Positions 1,629-31,221 of a stretch of DNA of 31,221 nt are shown piece after piece (position 1 is the first letter of the stretch; every line of letters starts with the position of its first letter). The DNA is from a virus, in the IMG/VR virus record IMGVR_UViG_3300045855_000044, positions 1-31,221 of that record, one strand, 5' to 3'. The translations under genes and the position numbers were made by a program. Below the pieces are notes generated by a model. The model did not search any database, was not told the DNA's origin, and saw only the letters and a list, made by a program, of their open reading frames with translations.

Positions 1629-3789
1629 CAAAATAACTTTTCTAAAGAATGCATTGATACCGTACAAATTTGATGAATTAACAATAGAAGGGGCGTTAAA
1701 ATACATCAAAAACAGCGAAACAATGAGAGATAGAATAGCGCATTTACGCACTATTAAAGATCCAGAGCAATACAAGAATGAAAAGATAAAACTTCCAGCG
1801 TTCTCATTTTCCGGCACGTTCAAAGATAGCGTAACCAATGCTAATTTTGACCAGCATAGCGGCGTTTTTACAGTTGATATAGACCACCTTGAAGATGTCA
1901 ATGCGGACAAGGAGCTGGTGTGTTCCATTCCTTATGTGCTGGCCTGTTTTTTATCTCCCGGCGGCAATGGTTTAAAAGTTATTTTGCGAATAGATACGCT
2001 TAAAGATGATGCAGACCTTAAGGATAAATTTGCATCAATAACTGCTCTATTTGCTGGCTATGGGGTAACTATAGACCAAAGTTGTAAAGACATCCGTAGA
2101 GTATGCTTCTCAAGCTATGACCCTGATATTTATATCAATTATGATGCTGATATTTTTATCACAACGGCTGAAAAACGAGCCAAAAGTGAGCCAAAAGTGA
2201 GCCAAAGCGCCGCCGCTGTCGGTGATGCTGACACATGCATTAAGCGAATTATTGATCTAATGCAAAGCGCAACGCCTGGAACTCGTCACAATACACGGTT
2301 AAAGGCTGCGCGATTGGCTGGCGGGTATGTAGCTGGGGGTTTTTTGCAGAGAGATATGGCAATGGATGTATTGCATCAAATCTCCGACAGCATATCAGAC
2401 AAAGGGACAACTACGCCGGGCGAGCTGAATACCATAGCGGATGGGTTTAATGAAGGTTTGCGGTTGCCTATTACGCATATATTTATACAGCGCGTACATG
2501 AACAAGATGTTGAGCAACATGATGAGTGGGAAACACCATTTTATAAAATAATTTTGCATGAAATATTAGCGCCATTCCCAGGAGTGATGAAGGCTTTGGT
2601 GGAGGAGACTTTGCGTGTGGCAAACAAACCGCAGCCTGAGCTTAGTATTTTATCGGCTTTAATTGGTATGGCTGCAAGTATTGGGGGGAATTACAAAACC
2701 CCAGGTGGCCAGCGTTTTAATCTATATGGGATTGGCATATCAGGAACCGGAACCGGAAAAGACAAAGCTATGTTACCTGCTATTATGTTGAGTAAAGTGG
2801 CAGGTGCAGAGCTAGGTGGTCAGCCAGGATCAGGTGCAGCACTTGAAGATATGCTTGAAGAGCGTGGCACAAAAATATTGCTAAATATGGATGAGGTGGC
2901 TCACTTTATCGCTTCAATGAACGACATTAAACAAACACACATGGCTTCCCTTGCTGGTTATTTGTTAAAGCTGTTTAGTGCATCGAGAGGCGTTTATCAT
3001 ACTAGGAGGCTAGCAAATAGCAGCAATAATGCGCAGAAAGAATGTATCAATCCATGTGTAAGCTTGATGGGTTTTGCGTGTCCTGAGAAGCTTGGTGACG
3101 CGTTTGGTAATTCTAGCAACATAGAAGATGGACTGATGGGCAGGGTTTTGTTTGTGTCGGGGAGGGATAGTGTGAAGCCAAGGCGCGACCAAGGGGAATT
3201 TGCTATACCTGGATTTGTTATCGATACCTGCAAAAAAATATCCTTTAACCAGGATATTACACTAGAAATAGATTATCAGGCTGATTCAGAGTTAGACCGT
3301 GTTTTAATGGATTTTGACAACGAGAGCGGTTCTTCTAGCAATCCTTTTGCCAAAGCCTTAAAGATGCGTAGCTATGAGAAATGCGAGCGTGTAGCGGGTG
3401 TTTTGGCTGTATTTGATAACCCAGCCCAGCCGGTAATAAGATTGCAGCATATTGAATGGGCAGAAATGTTTATTAAATACTGCGACAAAGAGATTTTGGA
3501 ATTCACCAGCAAGCATTTACATGGTGGACAGGTGCAATCGGACGCAGCAAAAATAACAAGCTTAATTGATAGATTCGGAAGCGGGGCATTGAAAGCAACA
3601 AATAAAATCCATTCCGTAATGATTAAAGATAAATATTTTCCCAGGTCATTACTGCTGAAAAATTCCAAGTTATGCAAGCGCGATTTTGATTTCGCCATAG
3701 ATCACTTAACGGATTTAGAGGCAGTGAAGCCGGTGAATTGGGAGGCCAAAAACAGCGTTTTTAGGGCTATTTTGGTCAATAAATCGTAA
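1618..3789 (+). CDS. Replicative primase-helicase (BT4734-like primase N-terminus + DUF3987-type ATPase)
   Basis: This 723-residue protein is the main replication gene of the window. Residues about 63-180 match the BT4734/VirE N-terminal domain, an archaeo-eukaryotic-type primase fold. The DID metal pair is at 87-89, SPGGNGLK at 113-120 and DQSCKDIRRVCF at 153-164. Residues about 305-560 match the DUF3987 helicase-like ATPase, with Walker A SGTGTGKD at 375-382 (K381) and Walker B ILLNMDEV at 420-427 (D425, E426). The C-terminal 150 residues look like a wHTH-containing tail. It should prime and unwind DNA at the phage fork. It follows the small HTH gene with an 11-base overlap and is closed by a strong terminator. 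No DNA polymerase gene accompanies it, so the polymerase is presumably from the host or outside the window. Confidence 0.88.
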   Translation: MINSKITFLKNALIPYKFDELTIEGALKYIKNSETMRDRIAHLRTIKDPEQYKNEKIKLPAFSFSGTFKDSVTNANFDQHSGVFTVDIDHLEDVNADKELVCSIPYVLACFLSPGGNGLKVILRIDTLKDDADLKDKFASITALFAGYGVTIDQSCKDIRRVCFSSYDPDIYINYDADIFITTAEKRAKSEPKVSQSAAAVGDADTCIKRIIDLMQSATPGTRHNTRLKAARLAGGYVAGGFLQRDMAMDVLHQISDSISDKGTTTPGELNTIADGFNEGLRLPITHIFIQRVHEQDVEQHDEWETPFYKIILHEILAPFPGVMKALVEETLRVANKPQPELSILSALIGMAASIGGNYKTPGGQRFNLYGIGISGTGTGKDKAMLPAIMLSKVAGAELGGQPGSGAALEDMLEERGTKILLNMDEVAHFIASMNDIKQTHMASLAGYLLKLFSASRGVYHTRRLANSSNNAQKECINPCVSLMGFACPEKLGDAFGNSSNIEDGLMGRVLFVSGRDSVKPRRDQGEFAIPGFVIDTCKKISFNQDITLEIDYQADSELDRVLMDFDNESGSSSNPFAKALKMRSYEKCERVAGVLAVFDNPAQPVIRLQHIEWAEMFIKYCDKEILEFTSKHLHGGQVQSDAAKITSLIDRFGSGALKATNKIHSVMIKDKYFPRSLLLKNSKLCKRDFDFAIDHLTDLEAVKPVNWEAKNSVFRAILVNKS

Positions 3790-3806
3790 GGTCGTCACCA
3801 CGATTC

Positions 3807-3845
3807 AGTCCGATTCACCATAGCCAGTGAATCGGGCTTTTTTTT
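3807..3845 (+). terminator. Intrinsic terminator after primase-helicase
   Basis: AGTCCGATTCAC (3807-3818) pairs with GTGAATCGGGCT (3827-3838) as a 12-bp stem with one G-U, an 8-base loop, and a run of eight T (3838-3845). It lies 18 bases past the stop codon at 3789. Confidence 0.9.
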
Positions 3846-4044
3846 GGAAAATGGTTGTAAGTTATTGTTATTTATTATATATATTAAAAAAAATAATACA
3901 CATATACATACTCTCACACATTAATTCACTAATTCACACCCATGTACACATACACCCCCCCTAAAATGACCAATTACATGTTACGCGTGAAGCGAGAGAT
4001 TTTGTGAATTTTGGTTTTATTGGATATTTATTTTGTTTGATGTA
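3846..4044. other. Gene-free AT/AC-rich region, candidate replication origin
   Basis: There is no credible gene here. The stretch starts with an extremely AT-rich block (about 3856-3895, TTATTTATTATATATATTA then A-runs). It continues with a strand-biased A/C-rich block (about 3897-3960), including a direct repeat TAATTCAC twice and a run of C. It lies next to the replicative primase-helicase. Easily melted DNA plus a strand-biased block beside the replication gene is compatible with an origin, but no known initiator site is recognised. Confidence 0.35.
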
Positions 4045-4072
4045 TTGTAATTTTGGCAATATGTTTTATAAT
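4045..4072 (+). promoter_or_regulatory. Promoter of the putative small RNA
   Basis: TTGTAA (4045-4050), a 16-base spacer and a perfect TATAAT (4067-4072) put the transcription start at about 4076-4080, exactly where the first RNA hairpin begins. Confidence 0.6.
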
Positions 4073-4078
4073 TGCATT

Positions 4079-4180
4079 GGGTTTTAAAAAGTTTAGTGCA
4101 GATTGACTTTTTAAAACTTCCTCTGGTTTTTACCCCCATTAGTTAGCCCTGCACGGCTGGACGAGTTGGGGGTTTTTTTT
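4079..4180 (+). ncRNA. Putative ~100-nt structured small RNA with loop-loop complementarity
   Basis: A complete RNA transcription unit lies in a gene-free gap. It has a promoter (TATAAT at 4067), a 5' hairpin with a perfect 12-bp stem (GTTTTAAAAAGT 4081-4092 with ACTTTTTAAAAC 4106-4117), a short pyrimidine-rich linker (4118-4131), and a 3' hairpin ending in eight T. The 3' hairpin has an outer stem ACCCCCA/TGGGGGT (4132-4138/4167-4173) and an inner stem GTTAGCC with GGCT-G-GAC (4142-4148/4155-4162, one bulge), capped by the hexaloop CTGCAC (4149-4154). That hexaloop is fully complementary to GTGCAG (4096-4101) in the loop of the first hairpin, so a six-pair kissing interaction can form. The linker contains UUCCUCU, an anti-Shine-Dalgarno sequence. 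I do not recognise the family. The alternative is a leader/attenuator of the gene starting at 4191. Confidence 0.6.
4132..4180 (+). terminator. Intrinsic terminator of the putative small RNA
   Basis: The GC-rich outer stem ACCCCCA/TGGGGGT is followed directly by eight T (4173-4180). An inner stem-loop (4142-4162) sits inside it. The T-run ends eleven bases before the ATG at 4191, so read-through would express the small-gene operon. Confidence 0.8.
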
Positions 4181-4190
4181 GGAATTAATT

Positions 4191-4379
4191 ATGGAAATAA
4201 AAAGACACATAGGGGACGAGTGCCCAGTTCCCGGCATTGATCGTGTAACCTACAGAACCGCCATAAATGGCGCTGGTGGCACAATATCAAAGTGGCACTT
4301 ACCAATAGCAGCCTATGAACTGGATTGGTCATTCAAGCCCAGCATTGGGCGTATTTATGATTATGTGGTGGTGGCGTGA
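4191..4379 (+). CDS. Hypothetical protein, 62 aa
   Basis: Begins MEIKRHIGDECPVPGIDRV and is not recognised. I chose the ATG at 4191 (GGA seven bases upstream) over an in-frame TTG at 4179, which would sit inside the terminator T-run. It is the first gene of a compact set of seven and overlaps the next by four bases (GTGA). It has one Cys and a hydrophobic C-terminus (IYDYVVVA), and no clear membrane span. Confidence 0.65.
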   Translation: MEIKRHIGDECPVPGIDRVTYRTAINGAGGTISKWHLPIAAYELDWSFKPSIGRIYDYVVVA

Positions 4380-4588
4380 GCGCAGATAATTTAGACCACG
4401 CACAGGAACTGTCACAATTTATGCTTGACGCCAACCTTGCAAACATACGCCAGCGATCACAAATTCAAATCCAGGGAAGCGGCACTTGTCAGGTGTGCGC
4501 TAACGAAGTGGAGGCGGTCGAGTGTTTCGGAAAATTAATAGTGCCTCGCTGGTGCTCAGTTGACTGTCGTGATAGGGCGGATTTATGA
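4376..4588 (+). CDS. DksA/TraR-like small zinc-finger protein
   Basis: This 70-residue protein has an N-terminal helical half (DHAQELSQFMLDANLANI) and a C-terminal Cys cluster, C38xxC41 then C60xxxC64 in RWCSVDCRDRAD. This is the layout of short phage/plasmid TraR-type proteins of the DksA family, which bind RNA polymerase through its secondary channel in the better-known members. The CxxxC in the second pair is slightly irregular. The GTG start at 4376 overlaps the preceding stop as GTGA. It ends in ATGA, overlapping the next small membrane gene. A role in modulating host transcription is inferred from family resemblance only. Confidence 0.65.
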   Translation: MSADNLDHAQELSQFMLDANLANIRQRSQIQIQGSGTCQVCANEVEAVECFGKLIVPRWCSVDCRDRADL

Positions 4589-4719
4589 AAGATGCGGCGC
4601 GATGCATGGCATGGTGGATAGTGCTTACTTTAACTTTTTTTATAGTGATTCCAGTCGGTATTATTTGTATCATTATCGACTCTGGTGCGCGTGAATTGTG
4701 GGATTGGGCTTTGAGATGA
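4585..4719 (+). CDS. 44-aa single-span membrane peptide
   Basis: The peptide begins MKDAARCMAWWIVLTL, with one clear hydrophobic span at about residues 9-31 and a short charged tail ending WDWALR. Four-base overlaps at both ends (ATGA at 4585-4588 and at 4716-4719) place it exactly within the operon and are the best evidence that it is real. The function is unknown. Confidence 0.6.
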   Translation: MKDAARCMAWWIVLTLTFFIVIPVGIICIIIDSGARELWDWALR

Positions 4720-4898
4720 ATTACGAAGAAACATTGCAAGCAATTCGTGAAATAGTGGCAGAAAGAGAAGCTATCAGGCAAGAAATAAGGAGGTCAGCTA
4801 AACATCATGAGATCGCATTAAATGCGCTTTTGTATCACTATAAAAACCTTAAATTATTATCGCTGGTCAATTTTTGCAATACCGGGAAGTTTTTATGA
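4716..4898 (+). CDS. Small coiled-coil protein, 60 aa
   Basis: The N-terminal two-thirds (MNYEETLQAIREIVAEREAI...) is a strongly helical heptad-like region, followed by an LKLLSLVNFC tail. The ATG at 4716 forms an ATGA overlap with the preceding stop, which I prefer to an in-frame GTG at 4698. The function is unknown. It overlaps the next small gene by four bases. Confidence 0.6.
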   Translation: MNYEETLQAIREIVAEREAIRQEIRRSAKHHEIALNALLYHYKNLKLLSLVNFCNTGKFL

Positions 4899-4978
4899 TT
4901 AAAATTTTATGGTTAATTTTGGTGATGTGCGTCGCACTGTCCATACCGTTTTGCGCGGTTACCGGGTGGCCTCAGTGA
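4895..4978 (+). CDS. 27-aa hydrophobic signal-like peptide
   Basis: The peptide MIKILWLILVMCVALSIPFC continues for seven residues. It is a basic start followed by a hydrophobic core and a Cys, like a signal or lipoprotein leader. It is joined by ATGA (4895-4898) to the gene before and GTGA (4975-4978) to the gene after. No independent promoter is visible. It may act as a coupling peptide or a membrane micro-protein. Confidence 0.45.
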   Translation: MIKILWLILVMCVALSIPFCAVTGWPQ

Positions 4979-5235
4979 GCATAGAAAGCACTTTAATTGA
5001 GCGGGGAAACCGGTACGGTAATTTTGCAGAACATGCGCGGATTACCCAGAACATTAAACGCGCAATGGTAGACTCGCCAAATTGGCAAGGGCTAAGCGAC
5101 GATAAAAAGGAATGTTTTGAAATGATAGCGCACAAAATAGGCAGGGCATTGAATGGTGACTCTGAATATCATGATAATTTCCATGACATTATCGGTTATA
5201 CAAAATTAGTAGCTGATACTTTAAGCCATGATTGA
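4975..5235 (+). CDS. DUF6378-type phage protein
   Basis: This 86-residue protein contains ERGNRYGNFAEHARITQNIK, a Trp-Gln-Gly-Leu segment, KKECFEMIAHKIGRALNGD and EYHDNFHDIIGYTKL. These are the conserved blocks of the phage family I know as DUF6378. Its all-helical, acidic/His-rich pattern resembles the MazG-like/nucleotide-pyrophosphatase style of fold, but this is not established. I chose GTG 4975 (GTGA overlap, MSIESTLIERG...) over an upstream in-frame start at 4909 that would run through the 27-residue gene. It overlaps the next gene by eight bases. Confidence 0.75.
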   Translation: MSIESTLIERGNRYGNFAEHARITQNIKRAMVDSPNWQGLSDDKKECFEMIAHKIGRALNGDSEYHDNFHDIIGYTKLVADTLSHD

Positions 5236-5419
5236 GTCAATTATAGCAGTGTCAGTCCTGGCAGTGGTGGCAGCCTGGGCGGTGGAGATAATAGCGCATT
5301 ATAGGGCGCCTTGTTTGCATCCGCACATAATGACACAACATAGCACCGGTCAACATCGATGCTATGATTGTCGAAAAGTTGTTGATTCTGAGAATGTTAG
5401 TATTAAGCACCAGCGTTGA
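5228..5419 (+). CDS. Small membrane-anchored zinc-binding protein
   Basis: This 63-residue protein has an N-terminal hydrophobic span (IIAVSVLAVVAAWAVEII, residues 5-22) followed by a probable zinc site, C29-x-H31 and C45xxC48 in HRCYDCRKVVD. The function is unknown; I recall similar short proteins in uncultured phages. It is the last gene of the rightward small-gene operon and stops two bases from the stop of the convergent 144-residue gene, with no terminator between. Confidence 0.65.
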   Translation: MIESIIAVSVLAVVAAWAVEIIAHYRAPCLHPHIMTQHSTGQHRCYDCRKVVDSENVSIKHQR

Positions 5420-5874: not shown

Positions 5875-5895
5875 CGGCCTGGGAAATCCAGACCG
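5875..5895 (-). other. Leader hairpin upstream of the 5856 gene
   Basis: CGGTCTGG and CCAGGCCG (minus strand) form an 8-bp stem with one G-U and a 5-base loop, between the -10 box and the ribosome site. The paired unit at 6882 has a hairpin of different sequence at the same place. Confidence 0.5.
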
Positions 5896-5903
5896 TGAAT
5901 AAT

Positions 5904-5931
5904 AGTATATAGATTTATTCTGTAATGTCAA
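5904..5931 (-). promoter_or_regulatory. Leftward promoter, copy 1 of a duplicated 44-bp block
   Basis: TTGACA (5926-5931), a 16-base spacer and TATACT (5904-5909) on the minus strand. The surrounding 44 bases (5897-5940) match 6921-6964 at all but one position, which falls in the -10 box. Confidence 0.8.
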
Positions 5932-5979
5932 CTTTTATTTTAATTAAGATACAATTTAACCGCCTCTTCAACGATATAA

Positions 5980-6902: not shown

Positions 6903-6918
6903 CGTCTCGGTTGAGACG
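6903..6918 (-). other. Leader hairpin upstream of the 6882 gene
   Basis: CGTCTC and GAGACG form a perfect 6-bp stem around a 4-base AACC loop, between the -10 box and the ribosome site. This mirrors the hairpin at 5875-5895. Confidence 0.5.
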
Positions 6919-6927
6919 TTGAATAAT

Positions 6928-6955
6928 ATTATATAGATTTATTCTGTAATGTCAA
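6928..6955 (-). promoter_or_regulatory. Leftward promoter, copy 2 of a duplicated 44-bp block
   Basis: TTGACA (6950-6955), a 16-base spacer and TATAAT (6928-6933), both boxes perfect, on the minus strand. It drives the 83-residue, GIY-YIG and 59-residue genes. Confidence 0.85.
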
Positions 6956-7018
6956 CTTTTATTTAAATTATTTTGTTGGTGACTTGCTGATTATTATTAT
7001 TGTGTTATTATTGAGATT

Positions 7019-15807: not shown

Positions 15808-17369
15808 GACAGCCAGCTATAAACAAGGCGCAGGCAAAGCAACAAATTAGCCAATTTGTAAGCTATCAAGCGCCGATAGGCGGCTGGAACGCCATTGATG
15901 CACTGGCAAACATGCAGCCAACCGAGGCCGTACAGTTAGATAACTGGTATCCACGTCCTAATTATTGTGAGATTCGAGGCGGCAGCGTAGCAACTGCAAC
16001 TGGCATGACTGGGAACGGCAAAACACTTGCTGTTTATAATGGTATAACCGGGCTTAATAAAATGTTTTGCGCCACTGCAAGCGGCGTATATAACGTATCA
16101 TCCAGCGGCGCAGTAGGGGCATCCGTAGCAGCCAGAACCAATGGCAAGCATCAACACATGATGTTCGGAGATGGGACAAATAATTATCTAATCATGGTGA
16201 ATGGGGTTGATAAACCGCTTTACTATGATGGTACAACTTGGCTGGCAGTAGATGGAGCGACAAGCCCAGCATTAACAGGAGTAACCACTACAAACCTTAT
16301 CGGCTTATGCATGTTTAAAGGCCGGTTAATGTTTATTGAGAAAGGCACGTTGGCGTTTTGGTATCTGGCGGCGGGGGCGGCTGGTGGACTGCTTACAAAA
16401 TTTGATCTATCAGGCGTGGCGCAACAAGGCGGCTATTTGATGGCGGCTGAATCATGGACAGTTGACGCTGGCAACGGCGTTGATGATCGGATGGTTTTTG
16501 TTACCAGTAATGGCGAGGTCATTGTCTATCAAGGCACTAATCCCTCATCATCTACAACATGGGGCTTGGTTGGTATCTACCATATAGGAGAGCCATTAGG
16601 CCGTCAGTGCATACTAAAGATAGGTGCAGAATTAATATTTTTGACCAAAGACGGCGCTTATCCAATATCGACAATTTGGCAGGCATCAGGCCTTGACTTT
16701 TCAAAAGCGGCAACACGTAAAGTACAGAACGAATTTAATGATATGGCGCGTATTTATGGCGCTAATTATGGATGGAAAGCCATATCTTATCCTGAACAAT
16801 CGGCGGTATTAGTCAATATTCCGCTTGCAGAGGATGGCATACATTATCAGTTTGTCATGAATACGTTAAACAATTCATGGTGTCGATTTATTGGATGGGA
16901 TGCTGAGGACTTTGCGCTGTTTAACTCTGAGTTATATTTTTGCAAAGGTACTGGCGTTTACAAGGCATGGACTGGTCTGTCTGACTTAGGCAGCAACATT
17001 TCAGCCTACGCAAAAACAGCATTTTCATACTTCAATACACCAGGACAGCAGAAGGATTTTAAACTGTTTAGGCCGGTAATAGCGGCCAGCGGGACACTAT
17101 CATTTTTAACCGGAATGGACATTGATTACAGCGATAATCCATTAACCGCATCATCTACTTACGCCATATCAAGCGGCGGGCTTTGGGGTACGGCAGTATG
17201 GGGTAGTTCATTATGGTCTACGACGACCTTAACCACCGTTAAAAAATGGGCGACTCCTAACATTTACCCAGGATATGCGGCGGCAGGGAAACTAAAGATC
17301 GATACCAAAAATTTAAATGTGCAGTGGTATAGTGTTGATTATGCGTTCGAGGTCGGTAATGGCATATAA
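15804..17369 (+). CDS. Tail hub / head-closure protein (P22 gp10-type)
   Basis: This 521-residue beta-rich protein opens with a helical segment, then SYQAPIGGWNAIDALANMQP and AVQLDNWYPRPNYCEIRGGS. That motif pair is characteristic of podophage hub or DNA-stabilisation proteins that close the neck after packaging. Repeated strands with Trp/Tyr-Gly turns (TSNGEVIVYQGTNPSSSTTW, LKIGAELIFLTKDGAYPIS) suggest a propeller-like fold. Position after the adaptor supports the call. Its end overlaps the acetyltransferase gene by 11 bases. Confidence 0.75.
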   Translation: MRQPAINKAQAKQQISQFVSYQAPIGGWNAIDALANMQPTEAVQLDNWYPRPNYCEIRGGSVATATGMTGNGKTLAVYNGITGLNKMFCATASGVYNVSSSGAVGASVAARTNGKHQHMMFGDGTNNYLIMVNGVDKPLYYDGTTWLAVDGATSPALTGVTTTNLIGLCMFKGRLMFIEKGTLAFWYLAAGAAGGLLTKFDLSGVAQQGGYLMAAESWTVDAGNGVDDRMVFVTSNGEVIVYQGTNPSSSTTWGLVGIYHIGEPLGRQCILKIGAELIFLTKDGAYPISTIWQASGLDFSKAATRKVQNEFNDMARIYGANYGWKAISYPEQSAVLVNIPLAEDGIHYQFVMNTLNNSWCRFIGWDAEDFALFNSELYFCKGTGVYKAWTGLSDLGSNISAYAKTAFSYFNTPGQQKDFKLFRPVIAASGTLSFLTGMDIDYSDNPLTASSTYAISSGGLWGTAVWGSSLWSTTTLTTVKKWATPNIYPGYAAAGKLKIDTKNLNVQWYSVDYAFEVGNGI

Positions 17370-31094: not shown

Positions 31095-31221
31095 TTAGCC
31101 GGAGCCGTAGCCGTAGCCGGAGCCGGAGCCGGAGCCGGAGCCGTAGCCGGAGCCGGAGCCGGAGCCGGAGCCGTAGCCGTCTCCGGAGCCGTAGCCGGAG
31201 CCGGAGCCGTAGCCGTCGCCG
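31095..31221 (-). CDS. Gly-Ser/Tyr/Asp repeat protein, C-terminal end only
   Basis: The minus-strand frame is open from the right edge to TAA at 31095-31097. It encodes about 41 residues, all alternating Gly with Ser, Tyr or Asp (GDGYGSGSGYGSG type, ending GYGYGSG). The rest of the protein lies outside the window. Other frames of the 6-base repeat are also open, but this one ends in a stop just at the repeat boundary. I recall phage proteins with similar tails and a short globular start. Low-complexity Gly/Tyr/Ser tails can be disordered or adhesive; the function is unknown. Confidence 0.6.
   Translation of the reverse strand, partial: GDGYGSGSGYGSGDGYGSGSGSGSGYGSGSGSGSGYGYGSG
31098..31221. 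repeat. 6-bp coding tandem repeat at right edge
   Basis: About 20 copies of CCGGAG or CCGTAG, with two CCGTCN variants, run into the window edge. Units differ at one base, which switches the encoded residue between Ser, Tyr and Asp on the minus strand. Confidence 0.92.

Follow-up and report, generated by a model that had tools for sequence, protein, structure and literature searches.

In P4 immunity, the cI RNA and the leader of the alpha primase operon are linked by short complementary leader sequences that control premature termination self-specifically, with a processed cI RNA, repeated seqA and seqC targets and an involvement of Rho. Antisense RNAs play a dosage and immunity role of this kind for plasmids, and in TAR/TAR* and ColE1 RNA I/RNA II loops of 6 or 7 nt are paired over their whole length. 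The put RNA of phage HK022 places hairpins at the start of an early transcript and affects termination via RNA polymerase at distant terminators; we know of no pairing there between the loop of a hairpin and that of a terminator. The pT181-type plasmid attenuator is a 5' leader in which an early hairpin and an intrinsic terminator precede the controlled gene, and it uses kissing loops with interior loops next to the contact (PMC4878617), interior loops being a reported design principle of natural kissing-hairpin regulators (PMC4878617).

The element described here was found in a viral DNA of 31,221 nt (IMG/VR record IMGVR_UViG_3300045855_000044, positions 1 to 31,221), the whole of which is referred to as the window. 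It shares the leader position, early hairpin, terminator and complementary loops of the pT181-type attenuator, and the interior loop near the kissing loop that pT181-type and CopA-CopT-like regulators show (PMC4878617) lies below a short apical stem in 16 of the 17 terminators parsed here. It differs in that the pT181-type partner is an antisense RNA, whereas here both partners lie on one RNA, and in that an anti-terminator within the pT181-type 5' hairpin base-pairs with the stem of the terminator, whereas here complementarity is limited to the loops: the arms of the 5' hairpin are T/A runs, the 5' arm of the terminator reads ACCCCCA, and no pT181-type anti-terminator complementarity to the terminator stem is present. 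Given that complementarity ends at the loop edges, a kissing contact would be expected in place of a classical strand exchange by an anti-terminator. The likeness to P4 immunity lies in the primase-operon leader, the short complementary sequences and a putative self-specificity, but here the target is the loop of the intrinsic terminator itself. Hairpins at the start of a phage transcript recall put, which in contrast acts at distant terminators, and the fully paired loops of 6 or 7 nt recall TAR/TAR* and RNA I/RNA II, which join two separate molecules outside any terminator.

Architecture of the element and its operon

The primase-helicase gene ends at 3789 and the next ORF starts at 4191, leaving the gene-free gap of 3790-4190 on which a sequence-only reading had remarked. 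The features are listed below; identities refer to L003 and L119, two related phage sequences treated in the next section.

3807-3845, + strand: separate terminator of the primase operon, 3' of the primase-helicase gene
4045-4050 (TTGTAA) and 4067-4072 (TATAAT), + strand: sigma-70-type promoter TTGTAA-16-TATAAT, 16-nt spacer
4079-4080, + strand: predicted transcription start, placed by its distance from the -10 box, at the base of the 5' hairpin
4080-4092 with 4106-4118, + strand: 5' hairpin of 13 bp with a 13-nt loop (4093-4105)
4096-4101, + strand: GTGCAG, 5' half of the putative kissing pair, inside the 13-nt 5' loop
4119-4131, + strand: single-stranded linker TCCTCTGGTTTTT, 13 nt, partly retained in L119 as TCCTTGGTTTTT
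4132-4173, + strand: terminator hairpin with basal stem 4132-4138/4167-4173, interior loop and apical stem 4142-4148/4155-4162
4149-4154, + strand: CTGCAC, 3' half of the putative kissing pair, the entire 6-nt apical loop of the terminator
4173-4180, + strand: run of eight T, the terminator tail, its first T paired within the stem
4191-4379, + strand: first operon ORF, 62 aa, 90% identical in L003, with its ATG 18 nt past the start of the T run
4376-4588, + strand: second ORF, 70 aa, cysteine-rich, 84% identical in L003
4909-5235, + strand: DUF6378-like ORF (below the Pfam cut-off); the gene that follows the L119 leader is 79% identical
5228-5419, + strand: last operon gene, a 63-aa ORF with CxxC, with a homologue in L003 and L119

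The promoter is present at 4045-4072 as first read, with a 10/12 match that is among the best of the + strand in the window. Other details of that reading needed adjustment. The 12-bp hairpin proposed at the predicted start exists as perfect arms at 4081-4092 and 4106-4117, to which a thirteenth RNA pair, 4080/4118, a G-U in the window, is to be added; among relatives, four of the 13 pairs are altered on both sides. The linker was recognised but counts 13 nt and not 14, and the terminator with its eight T, ending at 4180, contains an interior loop that had gone unmentioned. The claimed loop complementarity is exact, CTGCAC being the reverse complement of GTGCAG, but in the minimum-energy fold the 5' loop is partly closed by weak AGU/AUU pairing that leaves GCAG open, and kissing would therefore have to open three weak pairs. 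The element folds with a z-score of -3.2, 1 of 200 shuffles being equally stable. The probability that a random 6-nt loop finds a match in the 5' loop is about 0.0017, a post hoc figure that is not compelling alone because the match was noticed after the fact.

The terminator at 3807-3845 is predicted to insulate the leader from upstream transcription. On the minus strand, from which an antisense RNA of the pT181 type would come, no strong promoter was found at 4180-4385, and weak 9-of-12 sites lie at 4386-4415. The stretch at 3860-4040 is AT-rich, then G-poor, then C-poor, is kept at about 94% in L003 and is a possible replication origin. Elsewhere in the window, a 12-nt tandem repeat common to both record ends (1-258 and 31098-31211) suggests that the contig ends meet, in a circular or permuted genome, and a 57-nt direct repeat at 5890-5946 and 6914-6970, ahead of two minus-strand genes, holds a near-consensus minus-strand promoter (TTGACA-16-TATACT / TATAAT). 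Relatives of the phage's capsid protein were found in gammaproteobacterial and other MAGs.

Relatives of the window type

The window type is known from three sequences: the window, L003 and L119. L003 is another contig, about 95% identical over the region, with zero substitutions across 4083-4190 and one extra C in the C run; its other changes are confined to the bases directly 5' of the stem, where they make the outer G-U pair 4080/4118 an A-U and leave the hairpin in place at the predicted start. This comparison points to mild constraint and is no test of the pairs. A leader peptide, GTG...TAG at 4096-4146, was considered and rejected, as it lacks a Shine-Dalgarno sequence and the extra C of L003 displaces its end.

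A covariance model built from the window and L003, blind to loop pairing, was scanned over other loci and identified a homologue at 354-452 of L119 (55.5 bits, E 3.5e-8), a phage with an 88% identical major capsid protein. The loops of L119 read GTGCGG/CCGCAC: one kissing pair is changed from A-U to G-C and the kissing helix is fully paired. Over the window, L003 and L119 together, pairing holds in 99% of pair cells, and both sides have changed in 10 pairs, the kissing pair included, whereas sliding the partners by 1-3 columns as a control lowers the pairing to 34-58%. The covariance search suggested at the outset has thus returned compensatory changes in both the stems and the loop pair, and these, with the loop-loop complementarity kept in similar leaders of other phages, support the proposed kissing pair. 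Judging from the covariation in L119 and from the independent cassettes described below, the loop pairing in the window is beyond chance.

The L119 promoter, TTGCAA-16-TATACT, lies at the same distance from the element as in the window, and the distance of the 5' hairpin from the -10 box is constant within 1 nt in both L003 and L119. In L119 the terminator is kept, the start codon follows about 20 nt past the start of the T run, and the operon retains the DUF6378-like gene and a 62-aa CxxC gene behind an upstream gene unrelated to the primase, which indicates that the RNA travels with the downstream operon. A second candidate leader lies about 430 nt upstream of the first in the same phage (L213, 680-828), with GTAGGAA in the hairpin region and TTCCTAC in the terminator loop; it precedes the next gene upstream (104 aa in L119).

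In Rfam 15, at the curated gathering threshold, the window yields only a tRNA, weak sRNA matches falling far below the threshold, and nothing was found in 13 loci (11 similar leaders or candidates, L119 and L213). Phage and plasmid records contained no close DNA relatives; the 34 stretches from a loose viral pattern scan comprised only L002 (an identical phage), L003/L088 and chance matches; stricter scans of viral and genome collections found no further copy besides L119; the same hairpin arms, which bear on a conceivable solitary CRISPR-repeat anti-CRISPR RNA with a hairpin matching a host CRISPR repeat, were absent from other viral contigs; and a search through the downstream proteins returned only the same two phages. 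Search R1 over 274 gammaproteobacterial genomes gave one weak match, L275, which was rejected as a leader because it looks like an integron attC site. The layout was not described in the papers searched, a search to which most subscription journals were external.

Similar leaders in phages with Bacteroidota-type promoters

The layout had been thought without parallel, but many phages share it: at least a dozen others have a promoter, a 5' hairpin, a terminator and then an ATG within about 5-28 nt, with different matching loop letters. These leaders often precede a primase operon, which is partly a selection effect since the loci were collected through primase genes. In the first survey, cassettes of hairpin, terminator and start codon were taken from all collected loci and the terminator loops compared with upstream sequence; there were 17 loop matches of 7 nt against 2.9 expected, most of them from phages with a Bacteroidota-type -7 box (TAnnTTTG), where the match lies in the hairpin loop directly after the box. 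Later cassettes were picked by promoter, 5' hairpin and terminator only, without a loop criterion, under a definition set after the first matches had been seen. Loop-loop complementarity of at least 6 bp was present in 12 of 18 such promoter-anchored cassettes, the Elemovirus loci added, against a permutation mean of 0.77 and a maximum of 6 in 5000; an earlier version gave 12 of 29, against about 0.5 by permutation and a maximum of 4 in 5000. L214, L230, L231 and L234, and after them Elemovirus A and A_13-1A, came to light later and confirm the pattern out of sample. The two loops of one leader pair over 7.0 bp on average, against 3.2 bp for other loop combinations, the kissing pair measuring 6 bp in the window and 6-8 bp in most similar leaders, and the loop codes of leaders sharing one genome have no cross-match of at least 6 bp. 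The loop signal is clear only with promoter and 5' hairpin both required, and was weak or non-significant alone in the first scan with other thresholds and in a held-out scan that was not anchored on promoters (3 matches of 7 nt or more, about 1.5 expected). Linker length correlates negatively with stem length, a relation not used as evidence, the Elemovirus E fold being mis-parsed in that set.

The host of most Bacteroidota-type contigs was assigned by promoter motif, a recorded host being available only for Elemovirus. The leaders of these phages share with the window, L003 and L119 the 5' hairpin near the predicted start site, the matching terminator loop and an ATG soon after the T run; the window covariance model scores L230 at E 0.16 and did not recover the Elemovirus records, and the two types may be homologous or convergent. 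The L230 leader (16801-16910), with its Bacteroidota-type promoter, carries a loop pair, GTGCAG/CTGCAC, identical to that of the window. Two further similar leaders, L040 4807-4931 and L023 1258-1376, differ at three loop positions, all compensated (CTTCCAC/GTGGAAG and TGTCTAC/GTAGACA).

In the Elemovirus phages of Flavobacterium sp. BAL314, the leader stands ahead of an operon with a replication protein and a DNA primase/helicase, and its transcript would be expected to start after TATCTTTGC. Three alleles occur: GTGGAGG/CCTCCAC in Elemovirus E and F, TGAGAGC/GCTCTCA in A to D, and GTGAGATG/CATCTCAC in A_13-1A, whose loop was mis-parsed at the hairpin step of the genome scan. Over the -7 box and the sequence 5' of it, Elemovirus E and A agree at 60 of 60 bases, and their leaders are 49% identical; A and A_13-1A have downstream genes that are 99% identical, leaders that are 66% identical and different loop codes. 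The genomes of Elemovirus A and E, searched nearly whole, hold one such leader each. The tRNA genes annotated beside the leader, on its upstream side, differ, Ala in Elemovirus A (L260) and Met in A_13-1A (L261), which suggests a recombination hot spot.

Probable attenuation and its alternatives

The order in the window is promoter, intrinsic terminator, first gene, with no second promoter between. As this promoter is the only one and the first start codon lies beyond the terminator, all transcripts initiated there must pass the terminator, and the RNA is by position an attenuator leader. The sequence-only reading had offered three functions, among which an attenuator for the 4191-5419 operon fits best, because in the window, L003, L119 and all the other leaders the short space from the terminator to the start codon cannot accommodate a second promoter, and because L119 has retained the RNA together with the operon behind a different upstream gene; the decoy and the host-directed small RNA found no positive support. 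It is rather probable, on the sequence comparisons above, that the element is the attenuator leader of this operon and that a kissing contact links its terminator to the 5' hairpin. Transcription would start at about 4079 and the 5' hairpin would fold at once; the intrinsic terminator would end about 100 nt later, ahead of the first start codon, with termination at 4180, and regulation would come from the kissing of the two loops. As the terminator loop leaves the polymerase before the terminator 3' arm, a ready-made 5' loop could catch it, and terminator folding, hence read-through into the operon, would then depend on the contact. This contact may either favour or oppose termination, in cis or between the RNAs of genome copies. 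By a rough estimate, the 13-nt linker reaches about 78 Å, against about 112 Å for a fully stacked kissing complex including the finished terminator, so that kissing and a complete terminator could coexist only if the RNA bends; otherwise the two would be mutually exclusive, or the contact would form between two molecules.

This shortness of the linker for a fully stacked contact inside one RNA is also in keeping with self-recognition between RNA copies, to which we give a clearly smaller chance: the terminated leader RNA would accumulate and its loops would pair with the leader of another genome copy, of the same or a superinfecting phage, so that termination would follow gene dosage or confer superinfection immunity. 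Loop codes that diversify with complementarity kept, non-matching codes among the leaders of one genome and the different codes of Elemovirus A and A_13-1A, phages of one host strain, all speak for such an arrangement, and by analogy with plasmid antisense systems and P4-type immunity, which it resembles, diversity with the self-match kept suggests recognition between leader copies. However, recombination at the leader could explain the diversity, for which alone it is the simpler alternative, and Elemovirus A to D, named as different species, share one allele.

A host-directed small RNA or decoy that stands alone, read-through being a secondary matter, would account for the stable terminator with its U tail and for an exposed pyrimidine-rich linker partly kept in L119. 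It is nevertheless unlikely, as the element always lies 5-28 nt before a start codon (about 18-20 in the window and L119), and is retained alongside the operon but not alongside other neighbours; no copy sharing its loop pattern was found among 84,980 species of bacteria and archaea. The inverted repeat at 4081-4117 might instead be a DNA operator for a repressor, the terminator being an ordinary one; its perfect 12-bp arms directly after the promoter would suit this, but the arms are not repeated elsewhere beyond chance, those of L119 differ in sequence with pairing kept through compensatory changes, and the loop complementarity would be left unexplained, making an operator very improbable. 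Several loop matches of this size are expected among hairpin pairs in a sequence this long, yet a chance match between two ordinary hairpins is scarcely credible against the compensatory change in L119, the 12 of 18 unselected cassettes and the three Elemovirus alleles.

Leader terminators and kissing loops are both already known; a terminator loop apparently addressed by the leader's own 5' hairpin, with an address that changes while the match is kept, is absent from Rfam and from the papers searched. The sequence evidence points to an undescribed RNA switch, whose layout recurs ahead of replication operons in phages of apparently two host groups and is directly testable in cultured Flavobacterium phages, where three natural alleles exist on one host strain. 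More tentatively, and in our judgement with the balance against it, these leaders may form a widespread class of phage RNAs in which the variable loop code serves as an address, each leader recognising itself or the leaders of identical genomes by kissing; the replication operon would then be under dosage control or superinfection immunity, and compatibility groups of the plasmid kind would result.
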